11,493 nt of DNA from Promethearchaeota archaeon (lineage in GTDB: Archaea; Asgardarchaeota; Lokiarchaeia; Sigynarchaeales; SOKP01): NCBI GenBank assembly GCA_019894655.1, contig JAGXNZ010000305.1:1-11493 (forward strand), in the 5' to 3' direction. This document shows positions 4,893-10,007 of the stretch, piece after piece. Each line of letters starts with the position of its first letter. The stretch's first letter is position 1. The notes beneath the pieces are model-generated. The model ran no database searches, was not told where the DNA came from, and saw only the letters and a list, made by a program, of their open reading frames with translations. The position numbers and the translations under genes were made by a program.

Positions 4893-4948
4893 TAGAATTG
4901 TATAATAGTTATTTGTACTTTTTTGTAAAATTCATCACGGGAGGAAAT

Positions 4949-5254
4949 ATGACCGAATTAAAAGAGGAATTTCTAATATTTATAATTAATGAAGAAATGG
5001 AAGAATTTGACGAATTAGACCTATTGGATGCCCCAATTCACACGGCTCTAGATTCATTCTTTATTTTCATAATCGTAGATCCTAAAGATAAGGAGGTATG
5101 GATTTGGCAAGGAGAGAAAGCGAGTATTCGAAAAAAATTCATTGCAACCCAAAAAGCACCAGAAATAAGAGATCTCTATGGCGTAGACTTTAAAATATCC
5201 TCAATAGACGAAGGAAATGAACCACCTGAGTTTAAAAAACTGATTGGATTATAA
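4949..5254 (+). CDS. Single-domain gelsolin-like protein (Asgard eukaryotic-signature protein)
   Basis: A 101-aa protein that is almost entirely one gelsolin-homology domain. From residue 35: LDSFFIFIIV, then VWIWQGEKAS (50-59; WxG is the gelsolin beta-strand signature), a helix carrying KFIATQKAPEIRD, then FKISSIDEGNEPPEF (81-95), matching the family's closing eG-EP-eF motif. Gelsolins bind actin, and Asgard archaea are known to encode one- and two-domain gelsolins that regulate actin filaments, so a cytoskeletal role is likely. The N-terminal 30 residues are very acidic. By hand alignment to human gelsolin domain 1, Asp35 matches calcium ligand Asp66, but ligand Glu97 falls on Lys62. The start at 4949 is set by a strong ribosome binding site GGGAGG six bases upstream; the earlier ATG at 4898 adds 17 unrelated residues. 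It converges on the small-GTPase gene. Confidence 0.75.
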   Translation: MTELKEEFLIFIINEEMEEFDELDLLDAPIHTALDSFFIFIIVDPKDKEVWIWQGEKASIRKKFIATQKAPEIRDLYGVDFKISSIDEGNEPPEFKKLIGL

Positions 5255-5343: not shown

Positions 5344-6381
5344 TTATCGCAATGAGTTATAAAGCGATTCCGCTATAGTATAAAAGGCTAATTCAACATT
5401 TTCGCCAGTTTTAGCGCTGGTCTCAATGTATCCTAAATTAAGGTAACTCGCAAGATCAGACCCTTTTTCAGAAGTGCTCTTGTTAGATTGGCCAATATCT
5501 TTTTTGTTTCCAATTATATAACCTGTTAAAGCAGGCCTATCTGTTAGTTGGTTCTGAATGTCATAATACCAATTTGAAACGCTATCTAACGAGCTTGGTT
5601 TTGATAAATCGAAAATAAGGAATAAACCATCAGAGCCTAAATAAAATTGTTGTCTCATATTTTCGAATTTTTGCTGGCCGGCAATATCCCAAAGCACTAA
5701 TTGAATATAAGAGCCTTTAACTTGAAAGATTTTATCTGAAACGTGAACGCCAAGAGTAGGGATATAATGCCTTCGAAATGCGTTGTTGGTAAATCTTAAT
5801 ATTAATGAAGATTTCCCGACAGACGGATCCCCACATATTATGATTTTAAATTTATAACTGATTAAATTAGCTTCTTTTATTTTTTGATCGGGAAAAGCTT
5901 TAGCACTCTCTTCTGCAATTTCGTTATTTTTAAACTCGATTAAGAATTGGTTAATAGTAAGAAAGAGCTTATTTAGAGTATCTATATAATTTGCTCTTGG
6001 AGCTTTTGGTTTCTGTAATTGTGCGATATTTTTAGCCACTTCTTCAAATGGAATATCAAAATAATTTAAATATTTATAAAAGATAACATCGTCAGATTCT
6101 TTAAACAATAAAGTAATTGCTCCTTGCCCAATTCCACCTCTCCTCGATTCGTCATTCCACTTTACATATTTTATTAAACCTTTTAAATTTAAAGAAGGAA
6201 ATGGAAGAATTACCAATGATTTTGGAATGAGACCTCTTTCTCCTGATAAAACAGTAATTGTTTTAACACTAATATGGAGTCTACTTGATTGGGGAATTTC
6301 TCCTACCCATACAAATGGATTTGGCCCAAGATCATCATCCAATTCAGTGTAAAGTATTCCTTTTATTAGGTTTGCTTCCAT
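5344..6381 (-). CDS. Longin/profilin-like domain fused to a Ras/Rab-type small GTPase
   Basis: A 345-aa two-part protein. Residues about 178-345 form a complete Ras-superfamily G domain: G1 GDPSVGKSS (184-192), G2 Thr209 in YIPTLGV, G3 WDIAGQ (231-236, with Gln236 at the position of catalytic Ras Gln61), G4 NKKD (292-295) and G5 TSAK (321-324). GTP binding and hydrolysis should both be intact. Residues 1-120 (GILYTELDDDLGPNPFVW, then LHISVKTITVLSGE, then SLVILPFPSL, then DDVIFYKYL) resemble a small alpha/beta domain that I associate with Asgard archaeal signalling proteins; a longin/profilin-like fold is my tentative assignment. Residues about 121-175 look like a linker. The protein ends SLYNSLR, without a C-terminal Cys for prenylation, so membrane attachment, if any, must come from elsewhere. 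The start at 6381 has no clear ribosome binding site. The product is probably cytoplasmic or membrane-peripheral. Confidence 0.88.
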   Translation of the reverse strand: MEANLIKGILYTELDDDLGPNPFVWVGEIPQSSRLHISVKTITVLSGERGLIPKSLVILPFPSLNLKGLIKYVKWNDESRRGGIGQGAITLLFKESDDVIFYKYLNYFDIPFEEVAKNIAQLQKPKAPRANYIDTLNKLFLTINQFLIEFKNNEIAEESAKAFPDQKIKEANLISYKFKIIICGDPSVGKSSLILRFTNNAFRRHYIPTLGVHVSDKIFQVKGSYIQLVLWDIAGQQKFENMRQQFYLGSDGLFLIFDLSKPSSLDSVSNWYYDIQNQLTDRPALTGYIIGNKKDIGQSNKSTSEKGSDLASYLNLGYIETSAKTGENVELAFYTIAESLYNSLR

Positions 6382-6691: not shown

Positions 6692-6979
6692 TTAATCTTT
6701 TATATTTTCTAAGAGCGAAATTATCCGATAAATAGTAGTTCGCGAATGAAATGGAATATTAGCATCTTGAGATAAGTCATTAATCATATACATAACACTA
6801 CTGGCAAGAACTGCGGGAGAATCATCTTCACGCTTTAACTCATCGATTCCTTTTTGGGCTACCCGCTTTATATTTCTTGGAACGCCTCGATCATTAATCA
6901 TTCCATTAAGTAAATAATCCACTTTGGAAAATGCGTCTAATATTTCTTCAGTAAATTCTGGTCCTCGCGACATATCCAT
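6692..6979 (-). CDS. UPF0147 family protein
   Basis: A 95-aa, mostly helical, charged cytoplasmic protein of the archaeal UPF0147 family, which has no established function. The family signature is visible: GVPRNIKRVAQKGIDEL (32-48), then SSVMYMINDLSQDANIPFHSRTTIYRIISLLENI to the end, the usual layout of a family about 90 residues long. Two starts are possible. ATG at 6979 lies directly against GTGAG, which is too close for a ribosome binding site. ATG at 6973 (third residue) has GTGAG at a six-base spacing, which is more normal, so the protein may be 93 aa. It sits between PEP synthase and the tRNA on the same strand, with its own likely TATA box. Confidence 0.88.
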   Translation of the reverse strand: MDMSRGPEFTEEILDAFSKVDYLLNGMINDRGVPRNIKRVAQKGIDELKREDDSPAVLASSVMYMINDLSQDANIPFHSRTTIYRIISLLENIKD

Positions 6980-7091: not shown

Positions 7092-10007
7092 CTAGAAAAT
7101 TCCAAATTCGCGGATTTTTTTAGTTAATTTTGGAATTTCTTCTTCGAAAGTAGCTAACTGATTAGAATTTCTATCGTATATTTCTTTAAACGCTAAAACC
7201 TCGGCTTGATTCAAATCTTTAACGAAATTATAAGATATTTCATATATTTCTAAGAAAATATTATTAAATCTATCTGTTATTTCTAATAATTTCGGCGCGA
7301 CCTTTTTTCTTTGCTGTCTTACCATGTTTCGCAATTTACCTCGAGGAATTCTTATATTTTCAATAAGATTATCACACATATCCAAGAACAGATATGTATT
7401 CGCTCGATTTTCTTCTGGTAATTTAGTTTCAATGATCTCTGTTCGCCAAGTATTTATTCGGCCTCGCGCAAATGTATCAAAGTTAAGTGAAATAGAATCA
7501 ATTCCTTCCCTGACTAAAAATCGTAGAAAGTCTGGATCGTCACTAGGAGCTTGCCCGCAAATACCGACTTTTCTTTTGCGCTCATGGGCAGTTTTAATCA
7601 GATGACTTATAGATCGTCGAATAGATTCACTGTTTGTGTTATAATTGTAATTGTTCATAAGGGGTATCATTTTTTCGTTGTCTCTACCTACACCATAGGT
7701 TAATTGAGTAAGATCATTTGAACCAATTGAGAAGCCGTCAAAGTATTCACAGAAAATGTCTGCACAGATTATATTCGAAGGAATCTCTGCCATGACATAG
7801 ACCTTAAGGCCGTCTTTACCTCTAACTAATCCCTCATTTTCCATAATCTCGATAATTTTCTTTGCCTCCTCTGGACTTCGACAAAAAGGAAGCATGGGAA
7901 TTATGTTGATTAAGCCCCATTCTCTCGCTTTCTTAATTGCTTTCAGTTCTAAAATGAAAGCTTCTTGAAATTCTTCGTGAACATAACGTGAACACCCCCG
8001 GAAACCAAGCATTGGATTATTTTCCTCTCCTTCATATATCCATCCTCCAATGAGGTTAGCGTATTCATTGGTCTTGAAATCGGAAAGACGAACCACGCAT
8101 TCAGCTAACTCACCATTTGATAGTATCTTCCAGACTCCGGCTGCAATAGTAGCAATTCCTTCCGCTAACTTCTCTACATAAAATTCTTCTTTGTCATCGT
8201 AACCCGCTGTAATTTCTCTTATTACGTCAAGTGTCTCTTTTAGCTTCAGGATTTCTTTATTAAAGGGATCCTTGTGATAAAGATCCGATTTCTTGATGTT
8301 TTCAATTTTCTTTCTATGTTCTAGAAGAACTCCATACCTCATAACTAATGAATCAAATTCTATCAGGGCGTTAGGATGAATACGGATTTCGTCGTTTATT
8401 ATAAATTCTAACCTTGCTAAACCAGTTCCGTCGGGGTATTTGCCCGAAGATAAAGCGCCTTTGGGAATTCCTAAATTTACAAGGACTTGAGTTTTTGTAC
8501 TTGGGAGTTGTGCAAATTCTATAGAATCAAAATCATACTGTACGTCTTTAAGCCAGATTCGTGGTTCTCCCTCACTACAATCAATAGTGACGCTTTCAAG
8601 ACCATCCCTTTGTTTTTCTTTTATGATTCCTATAATGTTATCTGCCCCGACTATGGAAGCAATGTTTAATTCACGAGAGACAATAGCTGCATGGCACGTT
8701 GGTCCTCCTCGCTCCGTAATAACTCCACCTAAATTTTGCATGTAAGAGGTCCAATCGGGATTTGTTTCTTCCGTAACCAGTATATCTCCCTCTTCTAATA
8801 AATGAGCATCGTTGATAGATTCAATTACTTTAATTTTTCCATAACCGATTCTACGTCCTATTGCTGTTCCTTTATTCCCTACTAAAAATCCTTCGTTAGT
8901 CAATGCTACAGGATCTTCTAAAAGGTAAAAGATTTCTTCAGTGTCACCTTTCTGTGAATGAACGGTTTCAGGTCGTGCCTGTACTATATAAATTTTTCCG
9001 TCGTAACCCAAAGCCCATTCGATATCCATAGGTCGTTTGTAATGTTCTCGTATTTTGATTGCATACTCTGCTAAAACTCTAATCTCATCTTCGCTTAAAC
9101 AAAATTGTTTTTGCCTTTCTTGCTCGACAGGGAGAGTTATGGTCCCTCCTTTGTCATTGTCAAATATCATCATCTGTTCTTTTTTTACCAAAATTCTACT
9201 TATAAGCTTTAGCTTTGGACCGTGTTTAAAAACAATAAATTCATCACCTGCTTCAGCCCCCTGTACGATAAGTTCTCCTAACCCCCATGTTCCCCTAATC
9301 ACAATTACATTTGGATTTCCCGAATCTGGATCTTCAGTGAACATAACACCAGAGGATTTTACACCTTTCAACCCTCCAGCGATCTCTTGAACACCCACGC
9401 TTAATTTAACGGTAAAATGATCAAAACCAGCTCTTTCTCTGTACATCGTAGCCCTCGTTGTGAAAATTGACGCCATATCTTTAAGGATATATTCTAGAAT
9501 TTGATTTTCTCCAGAAATGTTTAAGTGTGTATCCTGCTGACCCGCGAAAGAGGCGTCAGGCAAATCTTCTGCTGTAGCAGAGCTTCTTATTGCAAAAGTG
9601 CTTTCACTTCCGATTCGATCCACCAAGGTGCGGTATGCTTCAATAATTTCATCAGCCAAACTGTCGGGAATTTTAGCTTGTTCTATCACGTAACGGATAT
9701 CAGCGCAGAATTTATCAACCTTTTGAATCGATTTTATATCCTCATTTTTAAGCTCTTCGGTAATTTTGGCAATATCTCGATTAATGTAATTCTTTAACGT
9801 TATCTCTTCGTTTTTAATCCTAAAATAATTAGTCTCTAAAATATAATCGTAAGCATCAGCTGTAACAGCAAATCCTAATGGCACTGGAATCCCAAAAGAA
9901 AGGAGTTCTCCTAAAGAAGCGTTTTTCCCTCCAACAATAGCCACATCAGTAGATCGAACATCATCGAAAAATTTGATATAGCGAAAGCTCGTTTTTTCTT
10001 TATCCAT
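7092..10007 (-). CDS. ppsA: Phosphoenolpyruvate synthase (pyruvate, water dikinase) with C-terminal extension
   Basis: Converts pyruvate, ATP and water to PEP, AMP and phosphate, the entry step of gluconeogenesis in many archaea. All three modules are present. The N-terminal ATP-binding domain has GGKNASLGEL (26-35), FAIRSSATAEDL (138-149) and DIEWAL (328-333). The swivelling phosphohistidine domain has TERGGPTCHAA with catalytic His439. The C-terminal pyruvate/PEP domain has NPMLGFRGCSRY (664-675), MAEIPSN (739-745), GFSIGSNDLTQLT (758-770) and GICGQAPSD with catalytic Cys818. At 971 aa it is well above the roughly 800 typical of PpsA. About 50 extra residues lie between His439 and Cys818 compared with E. 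coli PpsA, and about 110 extra, charged and probably helical, lie after residue 860. The usual FDERN-like segment after GVGRD reads MNNYNYN. GTGA seven bases before the ATG at 10007 can serve as ribosome binding site. Confidence 0.95.
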   Translation of the reverse strand: MDKEKTSFRYIKFFDDVRSTDVAIVGGKNASLGELLSFGIPVPLGFAVTADAYDYILETNYFRIKNEEITLKNYINRDIAKITEELKNEDIKSIQKVDKFCADIRYVIEQAKIPDSLADEIIEAYRTLVDRIGSESTFAIRSSATAEDLPDASFAGQQDTHLNISGENQILEYILKDMASIFTTRATMYRERAGFDHFTVKLSVGVQEIAGGLKGVKSSGVMFTEDPDSGNPNVIVIRGTWGLGELIVQGAEAGDEFIVFKHGPKLKLISRILVKKEQMMIFDNDKGGTITLPVEQERQKQFCLSEDEIRVLAEYAIKIREHYKRPMDIEWALGYDGKIYIVQARPETVHSQKGDTEEIFYLLEDPVALTNEGFLVGNKGTAIGRRIGYGKIKVIESINDAHLLEEGDILVTEETNPDWTSYMQNLGGVITERGGPTCHAAIVSRELNIASIVGADNIIGIIKEKQRDGLESVTIDCSEGEPRIWLKDVQYDFDSIEFAQLPSTKTQVLVNLGIPKGALSSGKYPDGTGLARLEFIINDEIRIHPNALIEFDSLVMRYGVLLEHRKKIENIKKSDLYHKDPFNKEILKLKETLDVIREITAGYDDKEEFYVEKLAEGIATIAAGVWKILSNGELAECVVRLSDFKTNEYANLIGGWIYEGEENNPMLGFRGCSRYVHEEFQEAFILELKAIKKAREWGLINIIPMLPFCRSPEEAKKIIEIMENEGLVRGKDGLKVYVMAEIPSNIICADIFCEYFDGFSIGSNDLTQLTYGVGRDNEKMIPLMNNYNYNTNSESIRRSISHLIKTAHERKRKVGICGQAPSDDPDFLRFLVREGIDSISLNFDTFARGRINTWRTEIIETKLPEENRANTYLFLDMCDNLIENIRIPRGKLRNMVRQQRKKVAPKLLEITDRFNNIFLEIYEISYNFVKDLNQAEVLAFKEIYDRNSNQLATFEEEIPKLTKKIREFGIF

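Follow-up and report, generated by a model that had tools for sequence, protein, structure and literature searches.

Can a single protein chain hold both a GTPase switch and the timer that turns it off? In human cells, longin domains on separate proteins, such as folliculin (FLCN), turn GTPase switches off, and the origin of eukaryotic GTPase regulation is an open question. The question is raised by an 11,493-nucleotide contig of a Promethearchaeota archaeon of the class Lokiarchaeia (JAGXNZ010000305.1, assembly GCA_019894655.1; hereafter the window, meaning the whole stretch that was analysed). A single open reading frame on its minus strand (5344–6381; 345 amino acids, ATG to stop), for which a preliminary description of this DNA gave no strand, joins a longin domain to a Rab-like GTPase. 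Such a chain may hold both switch and timer. We give roughly an even chance to the proposal that the window protein is a Rab-like GTPase with a built-in longin GTPase-activating protein (GAP), which would work either within one chain or between the chains of a longin dimer.

Upstream of the GTPase lie 172 residues, which comprise a compact domain (residues 1–125, 6007–6381; all coordinates are on the minus strand unless stated) followed by a long helix (129–162 in the models) and a short linker (residues 126–172 together, 5866–6006). The preliminary description counted about 120 unrelated residues here; the length is greater, and the residues are unrelated only by simple sequence search. A Pfam scan of residues 1–172 matched no family, and the AlphaFold model of the same residues is a longin domain (predicted local distance difference test score, 86.7). 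Its strands (6–15, 19–27, 57–61, 66–76 and 84–94) and helices (31–47, 95–123 and 129–162) begin with a strand, run in the order b-b-a-b-b-b-a-a and close with two C-terminal helices (105–123 and 129–162), as in the longin topology described in PMC10933270 (a five-stranded sheet, no N-terminal helix and two C-terminal helices). The helix that precedes the first strand in roadblock/LC7 domains is absent, as the model opens with strand 6–15. No profilin was named among the fold-search matches listed (50 in one search), which does not exclude one.

Fold searches also matched the model to solved longins, so that predicted structure and fold searches agree on the longin fold that had been proposed for this region; fold and family assignment are well supported. 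When the full-length model was searched, only the GTPase portion was matched, and a PDB profile search with alignment A3 gave only matches that we took for chance, mostly TALE repeats. The closest solved longin overall is 8yqg, a Lokiarchaeota roadblock–longin protein that is a dimer according to its title. The structurally nearest eukaryotic longins belong to the GAP complexes Lst4, FLCN, GATOR1 and C9orf72–SMCR8, and those of Mon1–Ccz1, TRAPP and DENND1 ranked under every listed GAP-complex match, with ties at the edge. Longins were proposed in 2012 to derive from prokaryotic GAP roadblock domains (PMC3521125).

The C-terminal half (residues 173–345, 5347–5865) is an intact Rab-like GTPase, as first described. 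Residues 179–340 match Pfam Ras (150.1 bits, E = 5.4e-44), and the top sequence hits in the PDB are Rabs, among them Rab8A, Sec4 and Rab14; Pfam Gtr1_RagA, which marks the Rag class, gave 15.5 bits against a cut-off of 22 and so fell short of it. All five G motifs can be read from the sequence: the G1 P-loop GDPSVGKS (184–191, 5809–5832), G2 P-T with the switch I Thr (208–209, 5755–5760), G3 WDIAGQ (231–236, 5674–5691; Gln236 at 5674–5676), G4 NKKD (292–295, 5497–5508) and G5 SAK (322–324, 5410–5418). All 148 full-length sequences (duplicates included) retain the WD..GQ of G3, and Gln236 is kept in 46 of 48 clusters of GTPase-fused paralogues at 60% identity. The lack of a eukaryote-style prenylation Cys at the C terminus, also noted before, extends to the family: none of the 148 sequences has a Cys in the last 10 residues and one has it in the last 25, the sole Cys of the window protein being Cys183. 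Archaeal Rab-like proteins without this Cys have already been published (PMC4915359).

The fusion is real and conserved. When residues 1–172 were compared with 408 candidates, 247 proteins matched at E ≤ 1e-3; among the 120 homologues listed, every one has a Ras domain and 114 are 343–350 amino acids long. Thirteen proteins have the N-terminal domain alone; judging by sequence, several have the look of genes truncated at contig ends or shifted in frame, and P0130 continues into an unrelated enzyme. A genome scan gave 36 named-genome loci, 35 titled Lokiarchaeota or Lokiarchaeia and one Hodarchaeum. The frame is complete (344–350 amino acids) in 32 of them; of the other four, one reaches a contig end after 344 amino acids, two are truncated where their contigs stop and one breaks off after 69 amino acids. 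The same two neighbours, PPDK and UPF0147 genes, adjoin the fusion gene at 34 of the 36 loci. A survey of Asgard genomes found longin-profile matches (E ≤ 0.01) in 85 of 227 genomes, with a maximum of 11 in G083, and in 14 of 35 sources (the window plus 34 named loci) the fetched stretch carries two or three copies. In alignment A1, the longin averages 72% identity to the window protein, the GTPase 74% and the linker 54%. The locus, neighbour and genome counts refute the idea that two genes were joined by misassembly or by chance, to which we assign a negligible probability.

The loop that connects strand 4 (66–76) to strand 5 (84–94) carries a candidate arginine finger. This loop (DESRRGGI, residues 77–84, 6130–6153) contains Arg81 (codon 6139–6141), a candidate catalytic residue that is invariant in alignments A1 (59 sequences) and A3 (40 sequences). 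For a broader view, we drew paralogues from part of the longin-profile matches listed for the 227 Asgard genomes; 146 entries reduced to 144 distinct proteins of at least 300 amino acids and, with 3 that lack a P-loop dropped, to 141 GTPase-fused paralogues. Asp77 is conserved in 118, Arg81 in 114 and Gly82 in 120 of these, and the positions between vary (Arg80 in 70 of 141); Arg occupies position 81 in 42 of the 48 clusters.

Arg81 thus shares the feature of the FLCN, NPRL2 and SMCR8 longin GAPs, a conserved Arg in the strand 4–5 loop. D77-x-x-x-R81-G82 repeats the pattern around the catalytic Arg164 of FLCN (D160-S-L-A-R164-G165, checked against the FLCN sequence). Arg147 of SMCR8 is reported to point toward BeF3 in ARF1 (PMC8213707), and a preprint locates the Arg of DENN GAPs in the strand 4–5 loop and proposes a conserved Arg-Gly as the mark of GAP longins (PMC12803157). 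Paralogues in which Arg81 is replaced (by Lys, Ile and others) with WD..GQ kept include L038, L014:8847-9890 and L016:7074-8249, and others occur in part of the clade L133, L138, L139, L144–L147 and L150–L158; they offer ready-made tests of the arginine-finger hypothesis. Among extra tandem copies, 13 of 15 keep Arg81. We rejected as a rule the pairing of an Arg-bearing copy with an Arg-less tandem partner, as in SMCR8–C9orf72, because only 2 of the 15 extra copies lack the Arg.

Some divergent relatives of the window protein match the folliculin family. The window protein itself is unmatched by Pfam Folliculin (cut-off, 23.3 bits). In a small set of frames, the window-based longin profile scored 85 bits for L208, 82 for L207, 76 for L205 and 67 for L206. 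Two of these exceed the Folliculin cut-off: L207, a longin–Ras fusion (25.3 bits), and L205, a longin with a coiled coil (23.6 bits). L206, also longin–Ras, and L070 each stand just below it in the protein scan (23.0 bits) and at 24.1 bits in the genome search, and L208, a longin–Rag-like fusion (Gtr1_RagA, 90.4 bits), reaches 17.5 bits. Seven of the 24 divergent relatives scanned match Folliculin at E ≤ 1. Across the 227 Asgard genomes, Folliculin was matched in 59 at E ≤ 1e-3 and over the cut-off in 40, compared with 0 of 14 control genomes, and all 75 listed Asgard matches cover profile positions 51–93.

Arg-Gly is present in all 33 of these matches that were fetched, a selection-biased count that is not independent evidence because Folliculin matching favours Arg-Gly sequences; the independent evidence is the count within the GTPase-fused paralogue family. 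A P-loop follows the longin in 11 of the 33; ten of the 11 were scanned and all ten match Gtr1_RagA (81–90 bits). Ten fetched matches without a P-loop were also scanned, and all ten exceed the Folliculin cut-off. Longins of the same type are also joined to Rag-like GTPases, the GTPase class that FLCN and NPRL2 target. Ten such proteins, L226–L231, L237–L239 and L244 (463–505 amino acids), combine a longin that has a D-x-x-A-R-G type loop with a Rag-like GTPase.

Candidate archaeal longin–DENN proteins also came to light. L209–L212, L198 and L199 (G063, G057, G060, G061, G064 and G056) and L074 (G083) are about 361–394 amino acids long, with a ..RGG.. loop in the longin and a C-terminal half that appears DENN-like by eye; over the longin, L209–L211 lie above the Folliculin cut-off and L198 slightly below it. 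L209–L212, L198 and L199 do not match the window-based profile at E ≤ 10 and are tied to the window family through L074 and by hhalign, which aligned the window-family profile with the longin of the Asgard longin–DENN-like proteins (93.5%, E = 2e-7), RGG on RGG. A C9orf72-like identity for L074 was rejected (E = 0.028, below cut-off). Pfam Folliculin_C was matched at E ≤ 0.01 in 12 of the 227 Asgard genomes, once over the cut-off, and in 0 of 14 controls; NPR2 gave 10 weak matches in the 227 genomes, none over the cut-off. No comparison with human proteins reached significance: A3 aligned to NPRL2 by hhalign over residues 6–34 only (P = 0.028, probability 1.8%), the family profile gave E = 0.083 for NPRL2 and left FLCN unmatched, and the Asgard longin–DENN profile aligned with FLCN ungapped, with R164 on its Arg, but at E = 3.3.

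Other proteins (L073, L076 and L205) have the same longin with no GTPase behind it and long tails predicted to be helical, which are very Lys-rich in L073 and L076. For L076, BORCS6 gave a weak match (E = 0.0029) that stays below the cut-off. L076 was not counted as a Folliculin match, as its 23.8 bits in the genome search fell to 7.5 in the whole-protein scan.

How might the longin act? Under the proposal of a built-in GAP, it would bind the switch regions of the GTPase behind it, or those of the partner chain within a longin dimer, and insert Arg81 beside the gamma phosphate; together with Gln236, Arg81 would accelerate GTP hydrolysis. Because the protein lacks a prenyl tail, the longin probably also serves partner or membrane binding. 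We infer catalysis by Arg81, the fused GTPase as its target, dimerisation and localisation, and the full-length model does not fix the relative placement of longin and GTPase (predicted template modelling score, 0.51). Three observations weigh against an arginine finger: Arg81 ranks only 34th of 165 positions by entropy, 27 of the 141 paralogues lack it with WD..GQ intact in all 27, and 8yqg, the nearest fold, has no Arg-Gly in the aligned loop. The latter two, together with the dimer named in the 8yqg title, would suit a longin that sits away from the active site as a platform, pairing two GTPases or binding a partner or membrane in the manner of Rag and Ragulator, with Arg81-Gly82 conserved for the sake of folding or of partner binding. 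Something other than a prenyl Cys must also localise the protein. We nevertheless find a platform role doubtful, as the rest of this exposed loop varies around Asp77 and Arg81-Gly82 and a purely structural role does not predict the folliculin pattern.

The preliminary description had likened the domain to the longins of guanine nucleotide exchange factors (GEFs) such as Mon1–Ccz1 and DENN proteins. By this analogy the longin would open the nucleotide-binding pocket of the Rab-like GTPase fused to it, as the longins of Mon1–Ccz1, TRAPP and DENND1 complexes do for theirs. The structural ranking, the conserved Arg-Gly of the strand 4–5 loop and the Folliculin matches among relatives favour GAP longins instead. 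The GEF analogy is accordingly the less likely one, and a cis exchange factor seems to us unlikely, more so than a platform. A GAP working in trans on another Rab-like or Rag-like GTPase, with its own GTPase regulating or recruiting the longin, would fit the many paralogues per genome (up to 11 in G083), the tandem copies in 14 of 35 sources and the Arg81 kept in most of the extra copies. The fusion is kept in all 120 listed homologues, however, which favours the fused GTPase as the target and makes a trans GAP quite improbable. The fusion may plausibly retain an early version of the longin–GTPase pairing.

If the fused longin is a GAP, the origin of the longin–GAP partnership, which serves nutrient sensing (FLCN and GATOR1) and ARF control (C9orf72–SMCR8), would become testable in a single soluble protein. 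Tentatively, and with somewhat less than an even chance, we suggest that the FLCN, NPRL2 and SMCR8 GAPs descend from Asgard single-chain timers, in which a folliculin-type longin gives an arginine finger to a fused Rab-like or Rag-like GTPase, together with the Asgard longin–DENN-like proteins; GAP and substrate would have begun as one chain and separated later. A testable function would also be gained for a conserved, expanded Asgard family so far named generically; its members are called, where named at all, ‘Rab family GTPase’, ‘GTP-binding protein’, ‘small GTP-binding protein’ or ‘hypothetical protein’.

Upstream and outside the fusion lie two conserved neighbours, the UPF0147 gene (6692–6979; Pfam, 84.9 bits), inverted in L025 and L026, and the PPDK/phosphoenolpyruvate synthase gene (7092–10007; PPDK_N, 334 bits). 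A small gene on the plus strand (4898–5254) is convergent with the fusion gene and encodes a single gelsolin repeat (Pfam, 22.0 bits against a cut-off of 21), present at 11 of the 36 loci. The broken copy of 69 amino acids (L034:6001-6210) lies within a long contig and does not resume downstream in the three forward frames. The locus filed as Hodarchaeum mangrovi (L013, JAEOUE010000141.1) matches the Loki contig L012 at 97.0% identity along its full 4158 bases and is probably mis-binned.

Longin–GTPase fusions are already known as a class. In the MK-D1 genome, 26 of 74 small GTPases are reported to be fused to a roadblock or longin domain (Tran et al. 2024, PMC10933270). The earlier statement that longins normally pair with GTPases as separate chains holds for eukaryotes, but fusions had been published from one Asgard genome. 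The MK-D1 proteins resemble ours in having an Asgard small GTPase and a longin or roadblock domain on one chain. The text of PMC10933270 ties fused architectures to the Rag-like class, whereas the window GTPase is Rab-like. In the passages of that paper compared here, the longin is neither linked to folliculin nor given an arginine finger, although a supplementary figure may include the window family; FLCN is named there in the introduction as background, and in a reference. The main text of PMC10307638 contains no folliculin, DENN or longin. In the literature searched, which mostly excludes subscription journals, we found no paper joining Asgard archaea with a DENN domain, or Asgard GTPase-activating function with an arginine finger. 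What appears new, with priority not certain, is the GAP-type longin likeness, the Asp77/Arg81/Gly82 loop, the Folliculin matches of relatives and the joining of this longin type to Rag-like GTPases as well.

Other systems share parts of this arrangement. MglA–MglB pairs a prokaryotic Ras-like GTPase with a GAP of roadblock/longin fold, and the longins of the Rab GEFs Mon1–Ccz1, DENND1 and TRAPP likewise act on Rab GTPases. In 8yqg the longin is fused, by its title, to a roadblock domain rather than a GTPase, and C9orf72–SMCR8 consists of separate chains with DENN domains and has ARF as its substrate. FLCN and NPRL2, the eukaryotic Rag GAPs, differ in having a DENN domain behind the longin, where the window protein has a Ras-type GTPase; the window protein, moreover, has no Folliculin match and no known partner subunit. 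They share with it the longin fold and an Arg in the strand 4–5 loop, and the D-x-x-x-R-G of FLCN 160–165 recurs in the loop of the window protein, some of whose relatives exceed the Pfam Folliculin cut-off.
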